Positions 7,990-19,745 of a stretch of 64,000 nucleotides of DNA are shown here, in pieces. The DNA is from an uncultured Lachnospiraceae bacterium (GTDB lineage Bacteria; Bacillota; Clostridia; Lachnospirales; Lachnospiraceae). Below the pieces are notes generated by a model, which saw nothing but the letters and a program-made list of their open reading frames with translations, did not search any database and was not told where the DNA came from. A program made the translations under genes and the position numbers. The stretch is taken from contig CAMQTN010000002.1 in NCBI GenBank assembly GCA_947037115.1, positions 1-64,000 of the forward strand, read 5' to 3'. Each line of letters begins with the position of its first letter. Position 1 is the first letter of the stretch.

Positions 7990-8910
7990 ATGAAATACAG
8001 GGTAGTAGTGTTTGGTGTAAAAGATACTTCGGAGAATATCATCAACTTTATCAGGGAGGAAATCTGTCCCGTGGATCTGGTTATTACGATCAGCCCGGAG
8101 GTGACGAAGAAAAATCAGGTTTCGGGGTACAAAGGCCTGTCTGTCCTGACAGAAAAATACGGGATTCCCGTACACGAGGCGGACAGTTATTTCCTGACGG
8201 ATGAGAAGACGCAGAAATTCATGCAGGAGAATGAGTTTGACATCGGTATCTCCATGGGGTGGCAGAGGCTCATTCCAAAATCCGTTCTGGACTGTTTCAA
8301 ACATGGCATATATGGTTTCCATGGCAACAGCGGATATCTGCCTTTCGGCAGGGGACGTTCTCCTTTAAACTGGTCAGTGATTCTCGGGGACACCCGCTTT
8401 AACCTGAATTTGTTCCGCTATGACGAGAAGGCGGACAGCCCGAATGTGTTTGCAACGGAGATGTTTTCCATCACGCCCCACGATGATATCCGCACGGCGC
8501 AGTACAAAAACATGATCTGTTCGAAACGCCTTATCCGCAGGCTTCTTACCGCCTATGAAAGCGGCCATATTGAAATCAGGACAGATTCTAAGGACTTTGA
8601 CTCCTGGTATGAGAAACGGACGGCGGCGGACGGCAAGGTTGATTTTCATAAAAGAACACGTGATATTTATAATTTGATCCGCGGGGTGGCAGCTCCTTTC
8701 CCGGGCGCGTTTGCCTTGTGCAGGGGTGAGGAAGTGCGCATCTGGGAGGCGCATCCCTTTGATGAGATGATCGATTTTTCGGCTTACGCACCGGGTGAGG
8801 TGATCGATGTTTTTGAGGGAAAGCCTGTGGTGCGCACGGTGGACGGCTCGCTTTTGATTGACAGGTATGAGAGCAGCGCCGTGCTGAAGACGGGAGATAT
8901 ACTGTCATAG
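7990..8910 (+). CDS. formyltransferase-fold protein with altered active site
   Basis: 306 residues with the fold of methionyl-tRNA formyltransferase and sugar N-formyltransferases. The core SGYLPFGRGRSPLNW matches the family pattern SLLP-x2-RG-x2-P, and a C-terminal segment resembles the second FMT domain (APFPGAFA). The family triad is Asn-x-His plus Asp. Here His111 and Asp149 are present, but the Asn is Gly109 (YGFHG). A loss of activity, a changed substrate or a changed mechanism are all possible. Sugar N-formyltransferases need an amino sugar, and no sugar aminotransferase is visible in the window. It follows the epimerase by about 40 bases and precedes a hairpin repeat. Compare the formyltransferase at 16990, which has the intact triad. 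Confidence 0.75.
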   Translation: MKYRVVVFGVKDTSENIINFIREEICPVDLVITISPEVTKKNQVSGYKGLSVLTEKYGIPVHEADSYFLTDEKTQKFMQENEFDIGISMGWQRLIPKSVLDCFKHGIYGFHGNSGYLPFGRGRSPLNWSVILGDTRFNLNLFRYDEKADSPNVFATEMFSITPHDDIRTAQYKNMICSKRLIRRLLTAYESGHIEIRTDSKDFDSWYEKRTAADGKVDFHKRTRDIYNLIRGVAAPFPGAFALCRGEEVRIWEAHPFDEMIDFSAYAPGEVIDVFEGKPVVRTVDGSLLIDRYESSAVLKTGDILS

Positions 8911-10157: not shown

Positions 10158-11272
10158 AAAAAATGTTGTTGGTCGTGCCTTCACTGCATCAGGGAGGAGC
10201 GGAAAAGGTATGCGCAATGACGGCTGTTATTTTAAGGCCGTATTTCGAGGTACAGATTGCCATTTTTGATTCTGCCAATATCGACTTTGACGTGGAGGGA
10301 ATACCGGTGACGGATCTGGGACTGCCAAGCCGTCCCGGGAAATTGGCAAAAGTCCTCAACGTATTCAGGCGTGGCCACAGACTTAAAAAGCTGAAGAAGA
10401 AGGAACGGATTGACATTGTCTACAGCTTTGGCCCGACAGCCAATCTGGCAAATATCTTTGCAGGGCGGCTCTTTTCAAGGCGGGGTCCGAAATGCTGGCT
10501 GGGGGTCATGAGCTATATGGACATGGACAGCTCCTGGCTTGGGCTCTTTTGTAAGCGGTCTGACAGGATGCTTTGCTGCTCGGAAACCCTTCGGCAGATG
10601 ATTGAGAAGAAGTATGCCTGTGATCATACCTATACGTTGCAGGGATTCTTTGATATTGCGCAAATCCGGGCAAAAGCGGAGGAAGAAGAGGCGCAGCTTC
10701 CATGGCAGGATGGACGGGTCATTGTGTCCATGGGGCGGGAAGATGTGGTCAAGGGCTTCTGGCATCTGCTCAAAATTTTCTCGCTGGTACATGAGAAGCT
10801 CCCGGACACGAAGCTTTTGATTATCGGGAAAGGGGAGTTTACGCCATATCGGAAACTCGCGGCTGACTTGGGGATCGCGGAGGCCGTGTATTTTGCGGGA
10901 CTACAGAAAAATCCATATCCCTACCTGAAAAAGGGAACGCTTTACCTTCTGACTTCTTATTGGGAAGGATTTCCGAACGCTCTGGTGGAGGCTATGGCGA
11001 TGGGGCTCGTGGCGGTGGCCACAGACTGTATGACCGGCCCGGCGGAAATTTTCGACGGAAAATACGGGGTTTTGGTGCCGAACATGGGAAAGGACCCGGA
11101 TATGGACGCCTCCCACATAGAAGACGGAGAGAAAAGTACGGCGGCCCGGGTGGTTGAGCTGATGCAGAATGAGGAGGAGATGGCGCATTACAGCAGGCTT
11201 TCGGTGGAGCGGGCGGGCGTTTTCTCCAAGGAAGAATATATACGCAAAATCAGGGAATGGTCGACTGACTGA
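10154..11272 (+). CDS. GT4 glycosyltransferase
   Basis: A 372-residue glycosyltransferase with the short GT4 N-terminus VVPSLHQGGAEKVCAMT, a donor-domain GREDVVKGFWHL and the motif YWEGFPNALVEAMAMG (Glu271 and Glu279). The E-x7-E pair and the following DCMTGPAEI loop are typical of enzymes using UDP-hexose or UDP-HexNAc. The gene overlaps the preceding GT4 by ATGA. It resembles the next gene (11329) in layout, which suggests an old duplication. A cytoplasmic step in repeat-unit assembly is inferred from the context only. Confidence 0.85.
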   Translation: MKKMLLVVPSLHQGGAEKVCAMTAVILRPYFEVQIAIFDSANIDFDVEGIPVTDLGLPSRPGKLAKVLNVFRRGHRLKKLKKKERIDIVYSFGPTANLANIFAGRLFSRRGPKCWLGVMSYMDMDSSWLGLFCKRSDRMLCCSETLRQMIEKKYACDHTYTLQGFFDIAQIRAKAEEEEAQLPWQDGRVIVSMGREDVVKGFWHLLKIFSLVHEKLPDTKLLIIGKGEFTPYRKLAADLGIAEAVYFAGLQKNPYPYLKKGTLYLLTSYWEGFPNALVEAMAMGLVAVATDCMTGPAEIFDGKYGVLVPNMGKDPDMDASHIEDGEKSTAARVVELMQNEEEMAHYSRLSVERAGVFSKEEYIRKIREWSTD

Positions 11273-11328
11273 TATGGTCAGAATTGGTGTGGATTGCGGA
11301 GACAAATTTTCCTGACATGGAGGTAAGC

Positions 11329-12453
11329 ATGGCGCGAAAAATTGCTTTTCATTTGAACTGCCTGGAGCAGGGCGGCGCGGAACGGGTGGTATCGAATCTG
11401 TCCAACCGCTTTGTGCAGAACGGTTATGAGGTGCTCGTGGCCACGGAATGGCAGGGCGAGGATGAATTTTGGATAGACGAGAGGGTGCGGCGCGTGCATG
11501 TGGGACTGCGGGAGGGTGACGAGAAGAAGCCCCGTATCGTGCAGTTTCTTCTGCGTATCCGCTATCTAAAGCAGTTTTTAAAGGAAGAGAAACCGGATAT
11601 CCTGATTCCTTTTGCAAGAAAAGCGCTCTATCGGGGACTGACTGCCGCCTTTTTCATTAAGATCCCGGTGATTATCTCCATACGGACGGACCCGGTGGGA
11701 CATTATGACAGGCCTTTTGATAAAGTGCAGATTCCGTTTCTCTTTCCGAGAGCGGACGGCTGTGTTTTTCAGACGGAGGGGGCGAGGGAGTTTTTTGCGC
11801 CAAGGCTGCAGAAAAACTCCTGTATTATCTTAAATCCCCTGAATCCGAAATATATTGGTGTGCCCGAGCCCGCGAAACGGACAAAGACAGTGGTGCAGTC
11901 GGGGCGGCTGGTAGATTTCAAAAACCAGGTTATGCTGATCCGCGCCTTTGACCAGGTGCACAAGAAACATCCGGATTACGACTTGAAGATATACGGAAGA
12001 GACACGGGGGACGGCACGAAGGAGCTTCTGGAAAAGACGATCAAAGAGCTTCATGCGCAGGATTATGTGCATCTGATGGGCGCCAGTGACAGTCTGGAGA
12101 AACAGCTTACGGATGCGGCGCTTTTTGCTTTCAGCTCTGACTGGGAGGGGCTTCCCAATGCGCTGATGGAGGCCATGGCTCTGGGACTTCCCATTGTGGC
12201 CACGGACTGTCCCTGCGGCGGCCCCCGCACAATCATGACGAACGAGGTGGACGGCCTGCTGATTCCCATCAAGAACCAGAAAGCGATGGAGGAGGGGATC
12301 AACCGGCTGATTGAGGATCCGGCGCTTGCCGAAAGACTTGGGCGGAATGCGAGAAAGATTGCCGAGAAGGCCAATGACGAGGCGGTCTATGGACAGTGGC
12401 GCGATTATATCGAAGAGGTGTGCGAGACATATCGGAAAAAACACGGAACATGA
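11329..12453 (+). CDS. GT4 glycosyltransferase
   Basis: 374 residues of GT-B fold with CLEQGGAERVVSNLSNRF at the N-terminus, QSGRLVDFKNQVMLIRAF in the donor domain and the E-x7-E motif DWEGLPNALMEAMALG followed by CPCGGPRTIM. The latter loop is frequent in GT4 enzymes transferring GalNAc or galactose, but donor prediction from it is weak. I choose ATG 11329, preceded by TGGAGGT, over a TTG at 11284. It is clearly similar to the GT4 at 24331 (same QGGAER start, NPLNP/NSLNP motif and spacing). Confidence 0.85.
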   Translation: MARKIAFHLNCLEQGGAERVVSNLSNRFVQNGYEVLVATEWQGEDEFWIDERVRRVHVGLREGDEKKPRIVQFLLRIRYLKQFLKEEKPDILIPFARKALYRGLTAAFFIKIPVIISIRTDPVGHYDRPFDKVQIPFLFPRADGCVFQTEGAREFFAPRLQKNSCIILNPLNPKYIGVPEPAKRTKTVVQSGRLVDFKNQVMLIRAFDQVHKKHPDYDLKIYGRDTGDGTKELLEKTIKELHAQDYVHLMGASDSLEKQLTDAALFAFSSDWEGLPNALMEAMALGLPIVATDCPCGGPRTIMTNEVDGLLIPIKNQKAMEEGINRLIEDPALAERLGRNARKIAEKANDEAVYGQWRDYIEEVCETYRKKHGT

Positions 12454-12521
12454 CGGCGCAGGCATAGGAGCTGTGCCGGAGGGCGAAGCACGGGAACTGC
12501 ATGAGAGCACGGAGGAAAACG

Positions 12522-14213
12522 ATGGGATCTGAGATGGAGAGAAAAATAAGGCGGCCCGGAAAATATCAGTTTCTGCTGTTGATCCCCTTTGCTTTCTGCT
12601 ACGCTTTTTTCATCGTTCTGGGAGACTGGCAGAGGTCTGCGCCCTACAGCAACACGCAGAACATGGCGCGGCTGTTGCTCTGGATACTCGTAAGCTACGG
12701 CGTTTTGCTTTTGCTGGGGTTTCTTGTGGAAAACGGCAGTGTGTTTGTGGCGGCATATGTACCCGCCGGCGTGCGTGCGGTTTTGTCCAGACTCTTTTCT
12801 TCGAGAGGCGTGCGGCAGGGACATTGGTGGGTGTGGCTTCTCTTTTCTCTTGTGTGTCTGATCTGCTATCTGCCTTACTATCTCATGTATTTTCCTACCT
12901 GGTTTAACAACGACGCCGTGTGGCAGATGGAGCAGGCTTTGGGGCTTGCGGCGCGCTCCAACCATCATCCTTACTTTCATACCATGATTATTAAGGTGTT
13001 TCTTACGGCGGGATATGGATTGTTTCACAGTTATACGGCGGCGGTGGCGCTTTACACGTTCTTTCAGATGGCGCTTACTGCGGCTGTGTTTGGATATTTT
13101 CTGTATCTTTTATACCGAAGAGGCACGGGACTCTTGTGGCTGATCCTTGCGGTCTTTTTCTACGCGTTTCTTCCCGTCAACGGAATGTTTAGTATCTGCA
13201 TGGGAAAGGACGCCTGGTTTACGGCGGCATTCCTGCTTTTTCTGTGGACGACCCATACCTGTGCCTGCGGCCGGGAGAGCGGAAGGCATCCGTGGATACG
13301 GTTTTTTGTGACGGGACTGGCAGTCTGCCTTCTCAGAAGTAACGGCATTTTTATTTTTTTGGGTACATCGGTATTCCTGATTCTGGAAGGACTATGGGGC
13401 AGGAGAAAGAGGAGAACAGAGGAGGGGCAGGGCTTTTGGAAGCGGTATAACAGGTATCTTGCGGTGGCGGCAGTGCTTCTTGTATACCTTCTGTGGCAGG
13501 GGCCGGTGCTCGGCGCACTACAGGTGGAGCCGCCGGATACCATTGAGAGTCTGACCATGCCAACACAGCATCTGCTGTGCGCTTATAAAAGGGGCGGGAG
13601 TCTGACGCAGGAGGAAATAGATATGCTCGAGGCGGTGGTGCCGCTTGCGCAGATCGACGACTATTACAACCCGTATCTGTTTGATATGACAAAGAATTAC
13701 ATACGCGAGCACGGAAACCAGCAGGCCATTGCGGATCACAGAGGGGACTATGCGAAGCTCTGGCTGCGGGTAGGGCTGCGAAACCCCATGCTGTATCTGG
13801 AAGCGGAAATACGGCAGACGGCCGGGTATTACGCCTTACATATTCCCCATGAACAGATTCTCTACAGCGAATACTTTATGGTGGACAACCCCTTCGGGAT
13901 AGAGACGCAGAGAAAGCTTTTCAGTTATGATGCGGAGCTGTCTATGGGCGCGTTTTTACAGTGGTTTCAAGAATTTTATAACAAAGTGTGGAGTCTTGGA
14001 ATGAACACATGGCTTTTGCTTGCGGCCTTTGCGTGTGCGCTTTACAGAAGGCGGAACGCTTTTGCCTTTGTGCCCTGTGTTATGCTGCTTGGAAGCCTGC
14101 TTCTGGCGACTCCTGTTTACAATGAGTTCCGCTATGCCTACGGGGTGTTTGTGGCGCTGCCGCTTCTATTTAGTTTGAGTTTTGGAAAAGAGACGGAAGA
14201 GAATGAAAAATAA
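12522..14213 (+). CDS. multi-pass membrane protein, DUF6020-like
   Basis: A 563-residue integral membrane protein with about a dozen hydrophobic stretches. After the third it has YYLMYFPTWFNNDAVWQME followed by HHPYFHTM. This resembles the DUF6020 group, in which a conserved aspartate in an outer loop precedes a HP-rich segment. That arrangement resembles GT-C enzymes, so a glycosyltransferase role is possible but not shown. A hydrophilic domain lies around residues 340-450. I start at ATG 12522 behind GGAGG (12511-12515); an ATG at 12501 is possible. The end overlaps the next gene by 11 bases, which couples it to the Dlt-like cassette. Confidence 0.7.
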   Translation: MGSEMERKIRRPGKYQFLLLIPFAFCYAFFIVLGDWQRSAPYSNTQNMARLLLWILVSYGVLLLLGFLVENGSVFVAAYVPAGVRAVLSRLFSSRGVRQGHWWVWLLFSLVCLICYLPYYLMYFPTWFNNDAVWQMEQALGLAARSNHHPYFHTMIIKVFLTAGYGLFHSYTAAVALYTFFQMALTAAVFGYFLYLLYRRGTGLLWLILAVFFYAFLPVNGMFSICMGKDAWFTAAFLLFLWTTHTCACGRESGRHPWIRFFVTGLAVCLLRSNGIFIFLGTSVFLILEGLWGRRKRRTEEGQGFWKRYNRYLAVAAVLLVYLLWQGPVLGALQVEPPDTIESLTMPTQHLLCAYKRGGSLTQEEIDMLEAVVPLAQIDDYYNPYLFDMTKNYIREHGNQQAIADHRGDYAKLWLRVGLRNPMLYLEAEIRQTAGYYALHIPHEQILYSEYFMVDNPFGIETQRKLFSYDAELSMGAFLQWFQEFYNKVWSLGMNTWLLLAAFACALYRRRNAFAFVPCVMLLGSLLLATPVYNEFRYAYGVFVALPLLFSLSFGKETEENEK

Positions 14214-15291
14214 GCTGAAAAAATGGTACAGACCGGCGCTGTTTCTCCTGCCGGTTCTGCTTTTTATAGGGATCGTGAACTGGCATGTGGATTCCTATGC
14301 GCTCCTGCGCGTCACTTATGACGATATTGCCGCGCAGATGGCGGCGGGAAAGAACGTGGAGGGGCTTGAGGAGTCTGACTATAACGACAGGAATCTGCTG
14401 GCTGCCCGACTAAGCGGTCAGGAAGAACCGTTTCAGACAGTGGTTCTTGGGTCCAGCAGGGTATATACCTTCGATCATACCATGTTCGGGACGCATTCCT
14501 TTTACAATGCGGGACTGTCGGAGGCGACGATCTATGATCTTCTTGCCGTGGCGGGTATTTTGTTTCAACAGGATAAACTGCCACAGACCATGGTGATCGG
14601 GGTAGATCCTTTTCTTTTCAATACTAGCCACGACAATGAGAAATGGAAGGAACTGCAATCTTACGCCAATTATATGGGACTTATGATAGATGGGAAATTC
14701 AGTGAAGATTCGCTGCTTCCGTCAAAGGATACAGGAAGGGATTTTTCAAAAACGCTTTCTCTGGATTATTTCCGTTACAATGTGACGCTTCTCCCCGAAA
14801 AGAAGCGGTTTGCCGTTTCCTACACGGAGCAATGGGAGACGGACGGGTATCTCAAGCATGCTGACGGAAGTGTCAGTTATCAGCGGGAGCTTCGGGAGGT
14901 TGAGGCAAAGGACGTGGAGGAAATGACAAGACAGGCCATGGAGGAGCATGTGGTCTACCGCATGACAGATTACCATGAGATTGACAACGATCATTTCTGG
15001 CGGCTTTCCGCGCTGATTGACCATCTGGAGGAGGCGGGCGTGGAGGTCATTTTATACTTGCCACCCTATTCGCCCATGATGTATAATTACATAGAATCTG
15101 AGGAGGCCTTTCAGATCACGCTGGATGTGGAGGAAAAGGTGAAAAATCTGGCGGCGGAGAAGGGAATTGCGCTCTACGGTTCTTATGATCCGGCGGGATG
15201 CGGCCTTGAGATGACGGATTTGTATGATGTTTATCATGTAAAGACAGAGATGACGCAGGATACTTACTATCCCGTGATTTCTGTACCATAG
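14203..15291 (+). CDS. SGNH/DltD-like membrane-anchored acyl-handling protein
   Basis: 362 residues: an N-terminal signal anchor (about residues 8-26), then an extracytoplasmic domain of the SGNH type. The nucleophile motif is VVLGSSRVYTF with Ser85, and a late DVYH gives Asp342 and His345, completing the expected Ser-Asp-His set. DltD and the acyltransferase helpers of MBOAT systems have the same plan. ATG 14203 with a GGAAGAG site is preferred to the TTG at 14182. It opens a cassette with an adenylating ligase, formyltransferase, carrier protein and MBOAT, so it probably helps move the acyl or aminoacyl group to the exported glycan, or trims it. Confidence 0.75.
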   Translation: MKNKLKKWYRPALFLLPVLLFIGIVNWHVDSYALLRVTYDDIAAQMAAGKNVEGLEESDYNDRNLLAARLSGQEEPFQTVVLGSSRVYTFDHTMFGTHSFYNAGLSEATIYDLLAVAGILFQQDKLPQTMVIGVDPFLFNTSHDNEKWKELQSYANYMGLMIDGKFSEDSLLPSKDTGRDFSKTLSLDYFRYNVTLLPEKKRFAVSYTEQWETDGYLKHADGSVSYQRELREVEAKDVEEMTRQAMEEHVVYRMTDYHEIDNDHFWRLSALIDHLEEAGVEVILYLPPYSPMMYNYIESEEAFQITLDVEEKVKNLAAEKGIALYGSYDPAGCGLEMTDLYDVYHVKTEMTQDTYYPVISVP

Positions 15292-15362
15292 ATTGTGCTG
15301 ACAGGAAGAGGGAGCGGAACAGACAGCCCTGACCGTAGAACCTGACCTGACAGGGAGGATGT

Positions 15363-16883
15363 ATGAAAGCGAACGTTACTTACTGGCTGGACGAGACGGC
15401 GAAGCGTTTCCCGGACAAGACGGCCTATGCGGATGAGAAGAAGGAGATTACCTTCGGCGCGCTGCGGGAGAGGGCGAGGGACATTGCCTGTGAATTGACC
15501 CAGAGAGGCCTGTTTAAAAAGCCTGTCGCTATTTTTCTGGAAAAGGGTGTGGACGTGCTTGTTTCTTTCATGGGCGCGGCTTACAGCTGTAATTTTTATT
15601 CCCCCATCGATGTGGACATGCCGGGAAGCCGTGTCAATAAGATTCTGGAGGTTCTGGAGCCAGCTGTGGTTATCACTACGGCTTCTTTAAAGGATGTTTT
15701 TGCGGCATATGATTATGAGGGAGAGTTTCTTCTGCTGGAGGAAATTTTTTCCATGCAAGGGAGAGATCAGGAGAAGGAAGAGAAGCTGGAAGAGGCCCGC
15801 AGGCGCGGTATTGACACCGACCTTTTGTATGTGCTGTTCACCTCGGGCTCTACAGGAGTGCCAAAGGGTGTGACCATCAATCACCGGGCCGTGATCGACT
15901 ACATTGACTGGGTGACGGAAACCTTTGAGATCACGGAGAAGGACAGCTTTGGCAATCAGGCGCCCTTCTATTTTGATAATTCCATTTTGGATATTTACAG
16001 CACCTTGAAAACGGGTGCGACTACTTATATTATACCGAAAAATCTCTTCGCCCAGCCGGTTCTTTTGCTGGAGTATTTGAAGGAAAAGAAGATTAATACC
16101 ATTTTCTGGGTGCCCTCGGCGTTAATTGTGGTGGCGAAGCTGAAAGCGTTTCGGAATGTGGATCTGACGGATACCTTAAAAAGGGTGTTGTTTTGCGGCG
16201 AGGTGATGCCCAACAAGCAGCTCAATGTATGGCGGAAATTCCTGCCGGACGTGCAGTATGCGAATCTTTATGGGCCTACGGAGATCACGGACGCCTGCAC
16301 TTATTATATTGTGGATCGTGAGTTTTCGGACGAAGAACCGCTCCCTATCGGCTTCCCGATGCCGAACACGGATATCTTGGTTTTAAACGAGAAGAATCAG
16401 CCGGTGGCGGAAGAGGAGTCGGGTGAGCTCTGTGTCAGAGGTACGTCTCTGTCCATGGGATATTATAAAAATCCGGAGAAGACCAGAGAGGCCTTTGTGC
16501 AGAATCCGCTGAATCAGGCGGTGCCCGAGCTGATCTATCGGACAGGGGATATTGTTAAATACAATGAGCGGGGAGAAATCATATATCTCTCGCGGAAGGA
16601 TTTTCAGATTAAGCATATGGGGCACAGGATCGAGCTGGGAGAGATCGAGACTGCGGTGTCATCTCTGGAAGAAATTTCCCTTTGCTGTTGTCTCTATGAT
16701 GAAAGGCATCAAAAGATTGTGCTCTTTATCGAGGAGGAGCTGGATAAGGCATATATTAATGAAAGAATAGCCCGGCTGGTGCCGGAGTATATGCTGCCCA
16801 ATAAGGTGATTCGGGTGGAGAAAATGCCCATCAACGCCAACGGCAAGATTGACCGGGTGAAGCTGAAGGAGCATATGAAGTAA
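15363..16883 (+). CDS. amino acid adenylation enzyme, DltA-like carrier protein ligase
   Basis: A 506-residue ANL-superfamily ligase. It carries core A3 LFTSGSTGVPKG, YRTGDIVKYNERG (A7), DFQIKHMGHRIELGEIE (A8) and the A10 lysine Lys495 in NANGKID. Asp205 in FYFDNSILDIY occupies the position that binds the alpha-amino group in amino acid activating enzymes. The neighbouring pattern is close to DltA (DLSVMDIYP), so an amino acid substrate is likely. Length equals DltA (about 500). It would adenylate the amino acid and load it on the carrier protein at 17906. D-alanine is the default guess, but the formyltransferase in the cassette allows others. GGGAGG lies upstream of the start. Confidence 0.85.
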   Translation: MKANVTYWLDETAKRFPDKTAYADEKKEITFGALRERARDIACELTQRGLFKKPVAIFLEKGVDVLVSFMGAAYSCNFYSPIDVDMPGSRVNKILEVLEPAVVITTASLKDVFAAYDYEGEFLLLEEIFSMQGRDQEKEEKLEEARRRGIDTDLLYVLFTSGSTGVPKGVTINHRAVIDYIDWVTETFEITEKDSFGNQAPFYFDNSILDIYSTLKTGATTYIIPKNLFAQPVLLLEYLKEKKINTIFWVPSALIVVAKLKAFRNVDLTDTLKRVLFCGEVMPNKQLNVWRKFLPDVQYANLYGPTEITDACTYYIVDREFSDEEPLPIGFPMPNTDILVLNEKNQPVAEEESGELCVRGTSLSMGYYKNPEKTREAFVQNPLNQAVPELIYRTGDIVKYNERGEIIYLSRKDFQIKHMGHRIELGEIETAVSSLEEISLCCCLYDERHQKIVLFIEEELDKAYINERIARLVPEYMLPNKVIRVEKMPINANGKIDRVKLKEHMK

Positions 16884-16989
16884 CAATTCGGTCGGAGGGA
16901 ATACCCGTATATAAGTAAAAAGCGATGCAAGCGCGTTTTGTGAATGGCGTGTGCCAAATGGGAATGTGGTATCGGAAATGAGGAATTGC

Positions 16990-17862
16990 ATGGAGACGGA
17001 TTTTGAAAGAGTCGTGGTGATCGGTTACGGCAAGGCCGCCGGGGAGATCCTGAAATATATTGCGGACAGACAGGCGGATTACGGTTACCTTCTGGAATTT
17101 ATCGAGCATGAGCTCCATGCGCTGAGCGTTACAGCACAAATTTGTGAGGAGAGTGGAATTCCTTTTTCTTCCGTGCCAGACAGGCGGGAGCTTGGTGTAT
17201 ACTTGAAGGAAATACAGGAGAAAACCCTGATTGTTTCAGCCAGCAACAATTATCTTTTCCCGGCCTCACTGGTGGAAAAGGAGAATATTGCGATTATCAA
17301 TTTCCACAATGCGCTCCTGCCGGATTATCCCGGAAGAAACGCCCCCAGCTGGGTCATTTATCAGGGCGAAAAGCGGACAGGTATCACATGGCACTATGTG
17401 ACGGTGGGCGTTGATGAGGGAAATATCATTATACAAAAGTCCTGTGAGATCGGGCCGGACACGAAAGCTTATGAGTTGGCAGAGCAGTTGATGGATCTGG
17501 CCTGTGAAGGATTTTTCGAGTGTTTTGACGCGGTTCTTTCGGAAAAAGTGGAGACCAGACCGCAGGCGTTTTCCCCGGAGCGGAGGATGTACCGTTCCAC
17601 GGAGATACCGGGGGAGGGATTTTTGAACCTGGAGGAGGAGCCGGATAAGATTTATCGGCTGCTTCGCAGTGTGGATTACGGAAAGACGGGCGTTTTTCCT
17701 CCGCTTCAGACAGTGGTGGACGGAAAGCGTGCAAAGATTCTGCGGTACCGTAAAATTGCGCCGGAGAAGAAAAAGGAGGAGGCGGACATGCTTTATCTGC
17801 CCCTTGCGGATGGAAACCTGTTGAAGATAAAATATACTAACATGTCCGATGAAGTCGGATAA
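16990..17862 (+). CDS. N-formyltransferase with intact catalytic triad, within the Dlt-like cassette
   Basis: 290 residues of the formyltransferase family, using 10-formyl-tetrahydrofolate. The triad is complete: Asn104 and His106 in NFHNALLPDYPGRNAP, and Asp142 in VDEGNII. The usual TGIT strand lies between. ATG 16990, 5 bases after GAGGA, is preferred to ATG 16978 or GTG 16951. It is encoded between the ligase and the carrier protein, and no amino-sugar biosynthesis gene is near. I therefore infer that it formylates the amino acid, free or on the carrier, as the formylation domain of LgrA does with valine on its carrier. Formylation of a sugar amine remains the main alternative. Confidence 0.82.
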   Translation: METDFERVVVIGYGKAAGEILKYIADRQADYGYLLEFIEHELHALSVTAQICEESGIPFSSVPDRRELGVYLKEIQEKTLIVSASNNYLFPASLVEKENIAIINFHNALLPDYPGRNAPSWVIYQGEKRTGITWHYVTVGVDEGNIIIQKSCEIGPDTKAYELAEQLMDLACEGFFECFDAVLSEKVETRPQAFSPERRMYRSTEIPGEGFLNLEEEPDKIYRLLRSVDYGKTGVFPPLQTVVDGKRAKILRYRKIAPEKKKEEADMLYLPLADGNLLKIKYTNMSDEVG

Positions 17863-17905
17863 AGAGCGCGTAAGCGCGGGGTGTGAGTAAAAAGACGGAG
17901 GATAT

Positions 17906-18142
17906 ATGATGGAAGAAAAAGTATTGGAGATCTTAGAGGAGTATTGCGAGGAAGCTCTCGATTACACGGGAGACAATATGATGGAGGAGGGTGTGATCGA
18001 TTCCTTCACCGTGATCAATATCGTGAGCGAGCTGGAGGACGTCTTCGACATTGAAATCGACGCCAAATACGTGGTAGCGGAGAATTTCAGGAATAAAGAG
18101 TCGATTATGGATCTGGTAAAACGTCTGGTGGATGACGAATGA
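17906..18142 (+). CDS. acyl/aminoacyl carrier protein, DltC-like
   Basis: A 78-residue acidic carrier protein. The phosphopantetheine attachment serine is Ser33 in GVIDSFTVINIVSELE, and the helix that follows (FDIEIDAKYVV) has the usual carrier layout. The D-S-F context and short length fit DltC and stand-alone peptidyl carriers. It would receive the activated amino acid from the ligase at 15363 and present it to the MBOAT at 18165. ATG 17906 and ATG 17909 are adjacent; an ACGGAGGA site serves either. A 4'-phosphopantetheinyl transferase is not encoded in the window. Confidence 0.88.
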   Translation: MMEEKVLEILEEYCEEALDYTGDNMMEEGVIDSFTVINIVSELEDVFDIEIDAKYVVAENFRNKESIMDLVKRLVDDE

Positions 18143-18164
18143 TACGATCCGAACGGAGGGATTC

Positions 18165-19745
18165 ATGCAGTTTCTGTCGAGTAGCTTTGTGATATTGTGG
18201 GTGATCTGTTTTGCCCTGTATTACCTGGTGCCTAAAAAATGGCAGTGGGTGATTTTGGCCGCGGCCAGCGGCCTGTTTTATGTGATCGGCACGGGCGGGA
18301 TCCCGGTGGGTCTGCTTTTGACGGGAGCGGGAGCTTATGCCTGCGGGATATACTTAAAACGCAGTCTTGCGGCGCAGGGGCAGGCGCTTTCGGCGTGTGT
18401 GGAGAAAGAGAAGAAAAAGACGGTGAAACAGGGATTTGAGAGGCGCAGAAAACGCGTTCAAATCCTTTATTTTGTGTTGGGCCTGGGAATTTTACTTTTC
18501 ACAAAATACATGGTGGTGCTCCTGCCGTTTCTGCAAAATGCAGGTTTGACAGGTCTTCGGGCGGACGCCTTTTTCGCCCGTGTGGTGATGCCGCTTGGCA
18601 TTTCCTTTTATACACTGACGGCCATCGGTTATGTGGTGGATGTGGGGCGGGAGCAGTGCGGGGCGCAGGAAAATTTCCTGAAACTTTTATTATATCTGGC
18701 CTATTTTCCGGCGATCACGCAGGGGCCGTTCCACCGCTACGGGAAACTCCAGGAGGAGTTTGAGAGGCCCCATGTCTTCGACTATGAGCGGATGCTTTTC
18801 GGTGTACAGCGGTTTGTCTGGGGCGCCTTTAAGAAGCTGGTGATTGCGGATCGGATCAATCTCTTTGTGGGAAGCGTGTTTGGAGGCGGAGGTAATGCAG
18901 CACCGGGCAGTATTTATGCGCTGGCGGTGGTTCTTTACATGTTGCAGCTCTATGCGGACTTTTCAGGCTATATGGATATGGCGCTGGGTGTCAGTGAAAC
19001 TTTTGACATTATTTTGCCGGAGAATTTCAGGAGACCCTATTTTTCTAAATCGGTGGCTGAGTTTTGGCGCAGATGGCATATTACGCTTGGAACCTGGTTT
19101 AAGGACTACGTGATGTTTTCCTTTGTCATGTCTTCAGCCGGACGGAAGATCGGCAAAGGCGCAAAGAAGAGATGGCCAAAGATGGGAAAGCATGTGACGG
19201 GAATCATCGGCACTATGTTTGTCTGGCTGTTGACGGGTGCGTGGCATGGCAGAACGGTAAGTTACCTTCTGTGGGGTATTTACTATGGTGTGATTATGTG
19301 TGTGTCACTGGTACTGGAGCCGCAGTATGCCCTGTGGAGAGAGAAGCTTCATATAAAGGAAAGCAGGCTCAATGGCCTGTTTTGCATGGCAAGAACGTGG
19401 GTGATTGTCTTTTTTGCGGATGTGCTGATCCGTGCGGAAAGCCTTTCTCAGGCGGGACAGATTTATCGATCTCTTTTGCTGGACTTTCGTCTGCGGGAAG
19501 GGGTTTTTGACGTGACCTCCTACGGGCTGAGTAAATATGGTTTTTTGCTTCTGGCTGCGGCCTGTCTGCTGTGGCTTGCAGTCTCTTTGCTGGAGGAGCG
19601 GGGAAAAGATGTGCGCCGCGTCCTGTCGGCCCGTCCGATGCCTGTCAGGTGGGGATGCTATTATGGTGTGGTGCTGCTTTTGATTGTTACAGGAATCTAT
19701 GGCGGAAGTTATGATACGGCGGCATTTTTATACCAGAGTTTCTAG
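18165..19745 (+). CDS. MBOAT-family membrane O-acyltransferase (DltB/AlgI-like)
   Basis: 526 residues with many membrane segments. The MBOAT signatures are present: GISFYTLTAIGYVVD, QGPFHRYGKLQEEF, FWRRWHITLGTWFKDYV with His305, and LTGAWHGRTVSYLLWG with the catalytic His361. Such proteins take an acyl group from a thioester carrier across the membrane to a hydroxyl, on lipoteichoic acid in DltB or alginate in AlgI. Length is slightly above DltB. ATG 18165 is preceded by GGAGG; the ATG at 18132 lies inside the carrier protein gene and has no site. A basic loop of about 30 residues (EKEKKKTVKQGFERRRKR) follows the third segment. It closes the five-gene cassette. Confidence 0.9.
   Translation: MQFLSSSFVILWVICFALYYLVPKKWQWVILAAASGLFYVIGTGGIPVGLLLTGAGAYACGIYLKRSLAAQGQALSACVEKEKKKTVKQGFERRRKRVQILYFVLGLGILLFTKYMVVLLPFLQNAGLTGLRADAFFARVVMPLGISFYTLTAIGYVVDVGREQCGAQENFLKLLLYLAYFPAITQGPFHRYGKLQEEFERPHVFDYERMLFGVQRFVWGAFKKLVIADRINLFVGSVFGGGGNAAPGSIYALAVVLYMLQLYADFSGYMDMALGVSETFDIILPENFRRPYFSKSVAEFWRRWHITLGTWFKDYVMFSFVMSSAGRKIGKGAKKRWPKMGKHVTGIIGTMFVWLLTGAWHGRTVSYLLWGIYYGVIMCVSLVLEPQYALWREKLHIKESRLNGLFCMARTWVIVFFADVLIRAESLSQAGQIYRSLLLDFRLREGVFDVTSYGLSKYGFLLLAAACLLWLAVSLLEERGKDVRRVLSARPMPVRWGCYYGVVLLLIVTGIYGGSYDTAAFLYQSF

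Follow-up and report, generated by a model that had tools for sequence, protein, structure and literature searches.

A Dlt-like gene cassette with an inserted formyltransferase: a candidate route to N-formyl-aminoacyl esters on surface glycans

In a 64,000-nt stretch of DNA from an uncultured Lachnospiraceae bacterium (the window), five genes on the plus strand, spanning 14203–19745, encode in order an SGNH protein, an adenylating ligase, a formyltransferase (FT), a carrier protein and an MBOAT protein. Across genomes, ligase, FT and carrier form a conserved module, and FT is an optional insert in the cassette. We propose a Dlt-like pathway supplemented by FT, which probably makes an N-formyl-aminoacyl-carrier whose acyl group would leave the cell and be attached as an ester to a surface glycan. 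A preliminary description of this DNA had claimed five consecutive genes with FT between ligase and carrier, and the ORFs bear this out, all five lying on the same strand. The residues it named in the ligase (Asp205), FT (Asn104, His106, Asp142) and carrier (Ser33) are all present, and its MBOAT histidines (His305, His361) are correct for a start at 18165. The FT Asn/His/Asp triad is invariant (78/78 FT rows), the carrier serine is kept in 158/158 carrier rows, and the gene order is retained far beyond the species, so the cassette is more than a chance arrangement.

Genes and proteins of the cassette

Many glycosyltransferases are encoded in the window as a whole, which is a polysaccharide cluster. 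Just upstream of the cassette is a context gene for a DUF6020 membrane protein (12501–14213, plus strand; PF19484). The ATG of the SGNH gene (14203) sits within the 3' end of this gene, and because of this overlap the two probably belong to one operon; the SGNH frame may also start further upstream, with a TTG at 14182. The SGNH protein (14203–15291, plus strand) has an N-terminal membrane helix. When its structure model (pLDDT 82.5) was compared with solved structures, the top 12 chains were all DltD entries, with low TM-scores of 0.35–0.41, and no DltD profile matched in the profile search. The motif GSSR...DxYH (GSSR at residues 83–86, D342, H345) is conserved in an alignment of 36 rows. 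On the basis of fold and motif, this DltD-like protein is predicted to be the final acyltransferase onto the glycan.

The ligase (15363–16883, plus strand) scored 344.6 bits against the amino-acid adenylation profile TIGR01733 (cut-off 317.4) and also exceeded the PF00501 cut-off. Against the DltA equivalog TIGR01734 it reached 331.2 bits, under the cut-off of 559.85, and five related ligases likewise fell short, at 270–297 bits. Its best match among solved structures is LgrA. By spacing, Asp205 (codon 15975–15977) and Cys278 correspond to Asp197 and Cys269 of DltA, given as D-Ala pocket residues of the Bacillus cereus enzyme in the accessible portions of PMC4176424 and PMC8972799; Lys495 was also located. 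Other pocket contacts differ, with Asn206, Leu209 and Asp310 in place of Leu198, Met201 and Val301 of DltA. In the FT-anchored set, Asp205 is retained in 67/68 ligases, the remaining one reading X, and the pocket code DNLFLCLDAK occurs in 53/68. A second FT group has the code DVKIMSLCNK in 4/4 ligases, so that two FT groups accompany two ligase pocket codes. The preliminary description had set its idea against a ligase that activates a fatty or hydroxy acid. Asp205 and the score against the adenylation profile make such a substrate unlikely. To decode the amino acid of the ligase, we looked for an E. coli O-antigen known to bear D-alanyl groups; a DNA search gave no match, and no such entry stands among the 120 matches listed when the Vibrio ligase was used as protein query.

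FT (16990–17862, plus strand; start ATG 16990, with GTG 16951 possible) scored 74 bits against PF00551 (Formyl_trans_N; cut-off 26.1). Its triad is encoded at 17299–17301 (Asn104), 17305–17307 (His106) and 17413–17415 (Asp142). Among the matches listed for the FT model (pLDDT 95.5), the closest solved structures are sugar N-formyltransferases (WbkC, QdtF, FdtF and WlaRD). The formylation domain of LgrA is not among the best 50 structural matches listed and is a weak sequence match (E 6.7e-6); by sequence, the solved structure that FT matches best is the hydrolase domain of 10-formyl-THF dehydrogenase. No FT–carrier fusion was seen among 239 FT proteins scanned with the carrier profile, a length-limited set whose reach stops short of FT–ligase fusions. 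We also considered FT1 (7990–8910) as an amino-acid formyltransferase, and this is less likely, the catalytic Asn being Gly in 5/5 aligned rows.

The carrier (17906–18142, plus strand; Ser33 at 18002–18004) narrowly passed PF00550 (21.5 bits, cut-off 20.8) and stayed under the cut-offs of the DltC equivalog TIGR01688 (23.7 versus 52.35 bits) and the DltC model NF003464 (36.5 versus 68 bits). Its best PDB matches are D-alanyl carrier proteins. The DltB-like MBOAT protein (18165–19745, plus strand) scored 44 bits against PF03062 and 151.7 bits against the DltB equivalog TIGR04091, under the cut-off of 375; its PDB sequence matches are DltB only. Both histidines are conserved in the alignment. 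They are His305 and His361 for the start at 18165, and His316 and His372 if counted from an alternative ATG at 18132, which overlaps the end of the carrier gene. The MBOAT C-terminus ends in FLYQSF (codons 19725–19742, plus strand), matching FxYxxF, which the available part of PMC12148441 describes as an acyl-shuttle motif. Within the clade, F532 and Y534 are present in 45/45 rows and F537 in 44/45, with one gap.

Conservation of the ligase–FT–carrier module and variation at the FT slot

To assess the gene neighborhood, we examined 70 FT loci from public genomes, collected by FT alone. Within 6 kb of FT, 64/70 loci have a ligase (immediately upstream in 55/70), 63/70 a carrier, 52/70 an MBOAT gene and 48/70 an SGNH gene. 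The preliminary description had called for a conserved gene order in relatives, and this is what we see: ligase, FT and carrier are directly consecutive in 50/70 loci. In four of the six loci that lack a ligase call, the contig stops within 570 bases on the upstream side of FT; in the other two, from Helicobacter (L097 and L099), a ligase is truly absent near FT. As a control, loci of Fmt-like matches contained a ligase or carrier in 0/21 cases, with ∼1.5 kb examined on each side. The core also occurs without MBOAT, in 12/64 ligase-bearing loci plus others, including methanogens (L081, L082) and Aureivirga (L104). In methanogens and a flavobacterium, the module is mostly without a close MBOAT gene. 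Because the core is found where MBOAT is not, FT appears tied to ligase and carrier and not to one glycan.

We similarly surveyed Lachnospiraceae-family genomes, where 98 ligases fell within stretches picked non-randomly, by likeness to the ligase of the window and, for six stretches, by an FT match. The gene following the ligase was the carrier in 47 cases, a LysA-like PLP enzyme and then the carrier in 21, FT and then the carrier in 4, and GNAT and then the carrier in 1; another ORF followed in 1 case, and 24 ligases had no downstream carrier. Near-identical cassettes without FT read ligase–carrier–MBOAT. An FT-containing locus (L155) and an FT-less one (L175) share 62% identity in the ligase, 74% in the carrier and 68% in MBOAT. 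On a 51-row ligase tree, the presence of FT requires at least 9 changes, 7 of these forced by strongly supported branches; with irregular loci labelled otherwise, the same tree requires at least 8 or 6. The slot is occupied by GNAT, with FT absent, in L148. We dropped the idea that GNAT is a mutually exclusive substitute for FT, since GNAT-like and FT genes occur together in L087, L090, L091 and five Helicobacter loci. One GNAT–carrier fusion was also seen, in L087.

A proposed pathway and its alternatives

In the proposed pathway, the ligase would adenylate a small amino acid, for which the DltA-like Asp205 and Cys278 suggest D-Ala or D-Ser as candidates, and, as in other members of its family, would load it onto the phosphopantetheine of carrier Ser33. 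FT, with its complete triad and its position between ligase and carrier, would then transfer the formyl group of 10-formyl-tetrahydrofolate to the amino group of the aminoacyl-carrier. The cassette brings its own ligase and carrier, so an acyl group held as a thioester on the carrier is the most likely donor. By analogy with DltB–DltX and PatA, MBOAT may carry the acyl group across the membrane and place it on the Tyr within the FxYxxF at its C-terminus, from which the DltD-like SGNH protein would pass it to a hydroxyl of an exported polysaccharide, the product of the surrounding cluster. Both the ester and its lack of charge are predictions.

Sugar N-formyltransferases act on nucleotide amino sugars and are usually sited with DegT aminotransferases. 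In a rival reading, the polysaccharide itself contains the amino sugar that FT formylates, while ligase, carrier, MBOAT and SGNH protein separately add a free aminoacyl (e.g. D-alanyl) ester. Consistent with this are the structural likeness of the FT model to sugar N-formyltransferases, the nature of the window as a polysaccharide cluster rich in glycosyltransferases, and a DegT aminotransferase near FT in 3/70 loci. Moreover, in L080 a NeuB–FT fusion adjoins ligase–FT–carrier, an indication that N-formyl sugars occur in such clusters. Yet the sugar-type FT of L080 is a separate fused domain, which leaves the slot FT for another substrate. No DegT-type sugar aminotransferase was found in the window or in 67/70 FT loci; two DegT queries matched 4/100 stretches that the family survey had anchored on a ligase or on FT, so they are able to find distant DegT proteins. 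The one sugar-formyltransferase control locus (n = 1, from 291 genomes) has DegT next door, with ligase and carrier absent. FT of the cassette, by contrast, keeps company with ligase and carrier in archaea and bacteria, and is gained or lost in otherwise similar cassettes. The preliminary description had counted action solely on an amino sugar against its idea. Two observations lower its likelihood, namely that FT accompanies ligase and carrier in distant lineages and that DegT is mostly missing, though the fold of FT still speaks for it, and we regard formylation of the sugar as unlikely overall.

We consider it quite improbable that FT modifies a free amino acid or a side-chain amine before loading, with the ligase then activating the formylated form. 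A second acidic pocket residue, Asp310 (Val301 in DltA), could recognize a side chain that is polar or basic, and the LysA-like PLP protein that relatives hold in the same slot is another amino-acid-altering enzyme. However, the identical pocket code in the FT-less L148 and L150 suggests that the pocket probably needs no formyl group, and Asp205, the holder of the free alpha-amino group, is retained in all but one ligase of the FT-anchored set. Finally, FT could be a folate-handling or hydrolytic relative, comparable to 10-formyl-THF hydrolases, that transfers no formyl group to the cassette product, with the order of the genes being a frozen accident. Its best sequence match among solved structures points in this direction, but the triad is invariant, and FT presence changes at least six times on the ligase tree while its slot stays the same, which is unlike a frozen order. 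We deem this reading very improbable.

Relation to known systems

The Dlt system of teichoic acid D-alanylation (DltA, DltB, DltC, DltD and DltX) has in common with the cassette a ligase, a carrier, a two-His MBOAT, a DltD-like SGNH protein and the pocket Asp and Cys. The cassette differs in that it scores below cut-off in all three Dlt families tested (DltA, DltB and DltC), has FT inserted between ligase and carrier, and carries FxYxxF at the C-terminus of MBOAT itself, with no DltX called in an ORF set that starts above very short frames. The preliminary description had limited classical D-alanylation to ligase, MBOAT, carrier and SGNH protein; this needs amending, as the microprotein DltX is also used, according to the accessible part of PMC12148441. 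The same portion of that source allows a comparison with polymer acylation by PatA/PatB, an MBOAT–SGNH pair, which shares the C-terminal MBOAT FxYxxF and the SGNH partner. The donor for PatA is acetyl-CoA, whereas the cassette encodes its own ligase and carrier.

The FT fold and catalytic triad are those of WbkC, QdtF, FdtF and WlaRD, and the DegT neighbor is missing in 67/70 loci. In the initiation module of linear gramicidin synthetase, LgrA (F-A-PCP), formylation, adenylation and carrier functions act in line on an aminoacyl-carrier. The cassette would combine the same three functions, but as separate proteins, with an FT fold closer to sugar formyltransferases and a product that would go to a membrane acyltransferase rather than a condensation domain.

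Capped aminoacyl groups are known from glycan chemistry. The available part of PMC10059132 reports N-formyl-L-alanyl in the LPS of Vibrio anguillarum O2, and those of PMC3210612 and PMC10609480 give N-acetyl-D/L-alanyl and other capped groups on O-antigens. The alanyl examples in the latter two, as far as these portions go, are amides on amino sugars, and none of the portions mentions an N-formyl-aminoacyl ester, the product predicted for the cassette. In an FT search from V. lentus, V. anguillarum was absent among the 120 matches listed, and other Vibrio and Shewanella were present. A literature search of open-licence PMC papers found no report of FT inside a Dlt-like cassette.

D-alanylation acts by putting positive charge on the cell wall. 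If our proposal is correct, the formyl cap yields a neutral group from the same machinery, so the purpose must differ. The product would be a new type of ester on surface glycans, with the carrier-bound amino acid tailored before export, and the cassette would allow capped aminoacyl groups, so far known from glycan chemistry alone as in V. anguillarum O2, to be recognized by a gene signature. More tentatively, and with a little less than even confidence, we suggest that ligase–FT–carrier is a portable module of bacteria and methanogens supplying N-formyl-aminoacyl-carrier, a capped, uncharged donor. Different transferases might use it: MBOAT together with an SGNH protein to esterify exported glycans with N-formyl-aminoacyl groups, and AAC(3)-like or GNAT-like proteins to form amides on amino sugars. 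FT, GNAT and the LysA-like enzyme would then be interchangeable inserts that tailor the amino acid in a large family of Dlt-like cassettes. The cassette is directly testable in cultured, named isolates: for example, Butyrivibrio sp. VCD2006 and Methanomicrobium mobile carry the core, and strain 1xD42-87 carries all five genes.

A Dlt-like cassette with an inserted formyltransferase

Five co-directed genes at 14203–19745 on the + strand, with intergenic gaps of no more than ~106 bases by ORF calling, encode in order an SGNH protein, an adenylating ligase, a formyltransferase (FT), a carrier and an MBOAT. The last four are backed by profiles of Pfam and NCBIfam. Every Dlt equivalog model was matched, each below its cut-off, so we term the cassette Dlt-like rather than Dlt. 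The SGNH protein gave a weak Pfam match to DUF1574, under the cut-off. The 12 solved chains best matching its predicted model were all DltD entries (E 2.9e-6 to 3.9e-4, TM-scores 0.35–0.41), and its GSSR and DxYH motifs are kept across 36 aligned rows. The FT structure was predicted with confidence (pLDDT 95.5). Together, the ORFs, the profiles and the SGNH model confirm the five-gene, FT-containing arrangement proposed in the preliminary description.

The MBOAT retains both histidines and ends in FLYQSF; within its clade, F532 and Y534 are found in 45/45 rows and F537 in 44/45. Excerpts of PMC12148441 give FxYxxF as the acyl-shuttle motif of DltX and PatA, and describe MBOAT–SGNH pathways other than Dlt as lacking a carrier. 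Judged by sequence, FLYQSF is this motif. The cassette thus differs from the non-Dlt pathways of those excerpts in combining a carrier with a shuttle motif built into the MBOAT.

The 48 other window proteins scanned are mostly glycosyltransferases, with two sugar-phosphate transferases, a pyruvyl transferase, nucleotide-sugar enzymes, ABC transporters and membrane proteins, a gene content that identifies the surroundings as a polysaccharide cluster. The same cluster holds a second FT-fold protein (FT1, 7990–8910), in which glycine replaces the catalytic asparagine (GFHGNSGYLP) in 5/5 aligned rows. The host genome (86% complete) encodes four Formyl_trans_N proteins, two resembling PurN and Fmt. 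Apart from the cassette's own ligase, it has none close to the DltA class; the next best scores 160.6 bits against a cut-off of 317.4.

Conservation of the ligase–FT–carrier order

An FT-only query returned 70 loci from public genomes, 46 of them titled Lachnospiraceae; the remainder come from, among others, Methanocorpusculum, Methanomicrobium mobile, Helicobacter, Vibrio lentus, Gastranaerophilales and Aureivirga marina (Flavobacteriaceae). Within 6 kb of the FT, 64/70 loci have a ligase (immediately upstream in 55), 63 a carrier, 52 an MBOAT and 48 an SGNH protein. Ligase, FT and carrier are consecutive in 50/70, so the gene order, whose conservation had been proposed as a test, is indeed shared. 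The ligase call is missing in six loci: L048, L072, L083 and L102 end within 570 bases upstream of the FT (L083 has a partial ligase), and in L097 and L099 the ligase is truly absent. FTs of L097, L099, L166 and L167 have no ligase call, and the FT–ligase tie is therefore not absolute. At 21 control loci of Fmt-like matches (~1.5 kb either side), neither ligase nor carrier was found. FT1 was matched at >300 bits in 37/70 FT loci.

Methanogenic archaea (L081, L082, L083, L092) also carry ligase–FT–carrier, with the L083 contig ending inside the ligase. A gene reading like glycyl-tRNA synthetase adjoins the set in L081 and L082, where no MBOAT lies within 6 kb.

Ligase pocket codes and the optional slot

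The positions that we take to be the ten of the GrsA code were placed on the ligases by motif. The window's code, DNLFLCLDAK, recurs in 53/68 ligases of the FT-anchored set. It also occurs without FT (L148, L150, L151), as do near variants (L149, L153, L157); an AAC(3)-like N-acyltransferase accompanies the ligases of L149, L150 and L153, and NeuB those of L149 and L150. A second FT group has DVKIMSLCNK (4/4), so that FT pairs with at least two amino-acid specificities. B. cereus DltA residues Asp197, Cys269, Thr297 and Val301, as numbered in excerpts of PMC8972799 and PMC4176424, align by the same spacing with Asp205, Cys278, Thr306 and Asp310 of the window ligase. The substrate may be a D-amino acid, to go by Cys278, and polar, to go by Asn206 and Asp310; our guess would be D-Ala or D-Ser. 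Serine replaces the amine-binding Asp (SMxYLALDIK) in the ligases of five other Dlt-like cassettes (L154, L156, L159, L162, L189), whose substrates are perhaps not alpha-amino acids; all but one of these ligases have carrier, MBOAT and SGNH genes downstream.

Ligases at E up to 1e-60 were found in 136/299 family genomes and FT at E <1e-30 in nine, the host genome included; Dlt-like ligases are thus common and FT rare. The next FT match (1.9e-17) fell in the range of Fmt-like matches, and a class-level survey found FT at E <1e-30 in 3/391 genomes. From 100 stretches of family genomes, picked by similarity to the window's ligase (six by FT match), we recovered 98 ligases. The carrier follows directly in 47, after a LysA-like PLP enzyme in 21, after FT in four, and after a GNAT or some other ORF in one each; in 24 it was not called downstream. 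A further case, L198, is reversed, with the carrier first and then FT. The PLP enzyme matched the TIGR03099 and LysA models below both cut-offs. PLP-slot cassettes (L207, L190, L211, L219 and 17 further stretches) share the code DVKxxSxCNK.

One genome, G179, holds both a plain cassette (L154) and an FT cassette (L155), with different ligase codes. L155 and the FT-less L175 share a code, at 62%, 74% and 68% identity for ligase, carrier and MBOAT. A 51-row ligase tree, of the quick kind and with two long branches, implies nine changes of FT presence, at least seven forced by strongly supported branches. The count is eight when Vibrio L094 and L165 (FT some genes away) are scored as FT-bearing, and six when seven irregular loci are left out. 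GNAT-type proteins also occur between ligase and carrier without FT (L148:7691-8551) and fused in frame with the carrier in an FT locus (L087:2859-3893).

Substrate of the FT and predicted product

The main rival reading is that FT acts on a sugar, because its predicted model is nearest to sugar N-formyltransferases among the matches listed. Yet DegT aminotransferases are absent from the window and near FT in only 3/70 loci, using queries capable of detection (matched in 4/100 family-survey stretches), whereas the single sugar-FT control locus (n=1) has DegT next door. Moreover, unrelated lineages keep FT together with ligase and carrier, and in L080 a NeuB–SAF–formyltransferase fusion (11184-12839), presumably the sugar enzyme, adjoins a complete ligase–FT–carrier set. 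DegT scarcity, the tie across lineages and the L080 fusion all weaken the sugar reading.

Excerpts of PMC10059132 mention N-formyl-L-alanyl in the LPS of V. anguillarum O2, and those of PMC3210612 and PMC10609480 list N-acetyl-alanyl and D-alanyl amides. No N-formyl-aminoacyl ester was found in the excerpted literature, and a search covering open-licence papers found no published account of this cassette. The preliminary description had predicted such an ester on an exported polysaccharide. Conservation, the optional slot and the shuttle motif strengthen that proposal; the ester itself stays a prediction. We lean towards the view that the cassette would make a formyl-aminoacyl-carrier.

The ligase–FT–carrier core also occurs without a near MBOAT (e.g. 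L081, L082, L084, L085, L104), so esters cannot be its sole product. L084 has an AAC(3)-like gene upstream of its ligase. Separately, ligase–carrier pairs in L149, L150, L152, L153 and L200 have AAC(3)-like or GNAT-like neighbours, and all of these loci except L153 also carry NeuB; aminoacylation of nonulosonic acids is possible at these loci.
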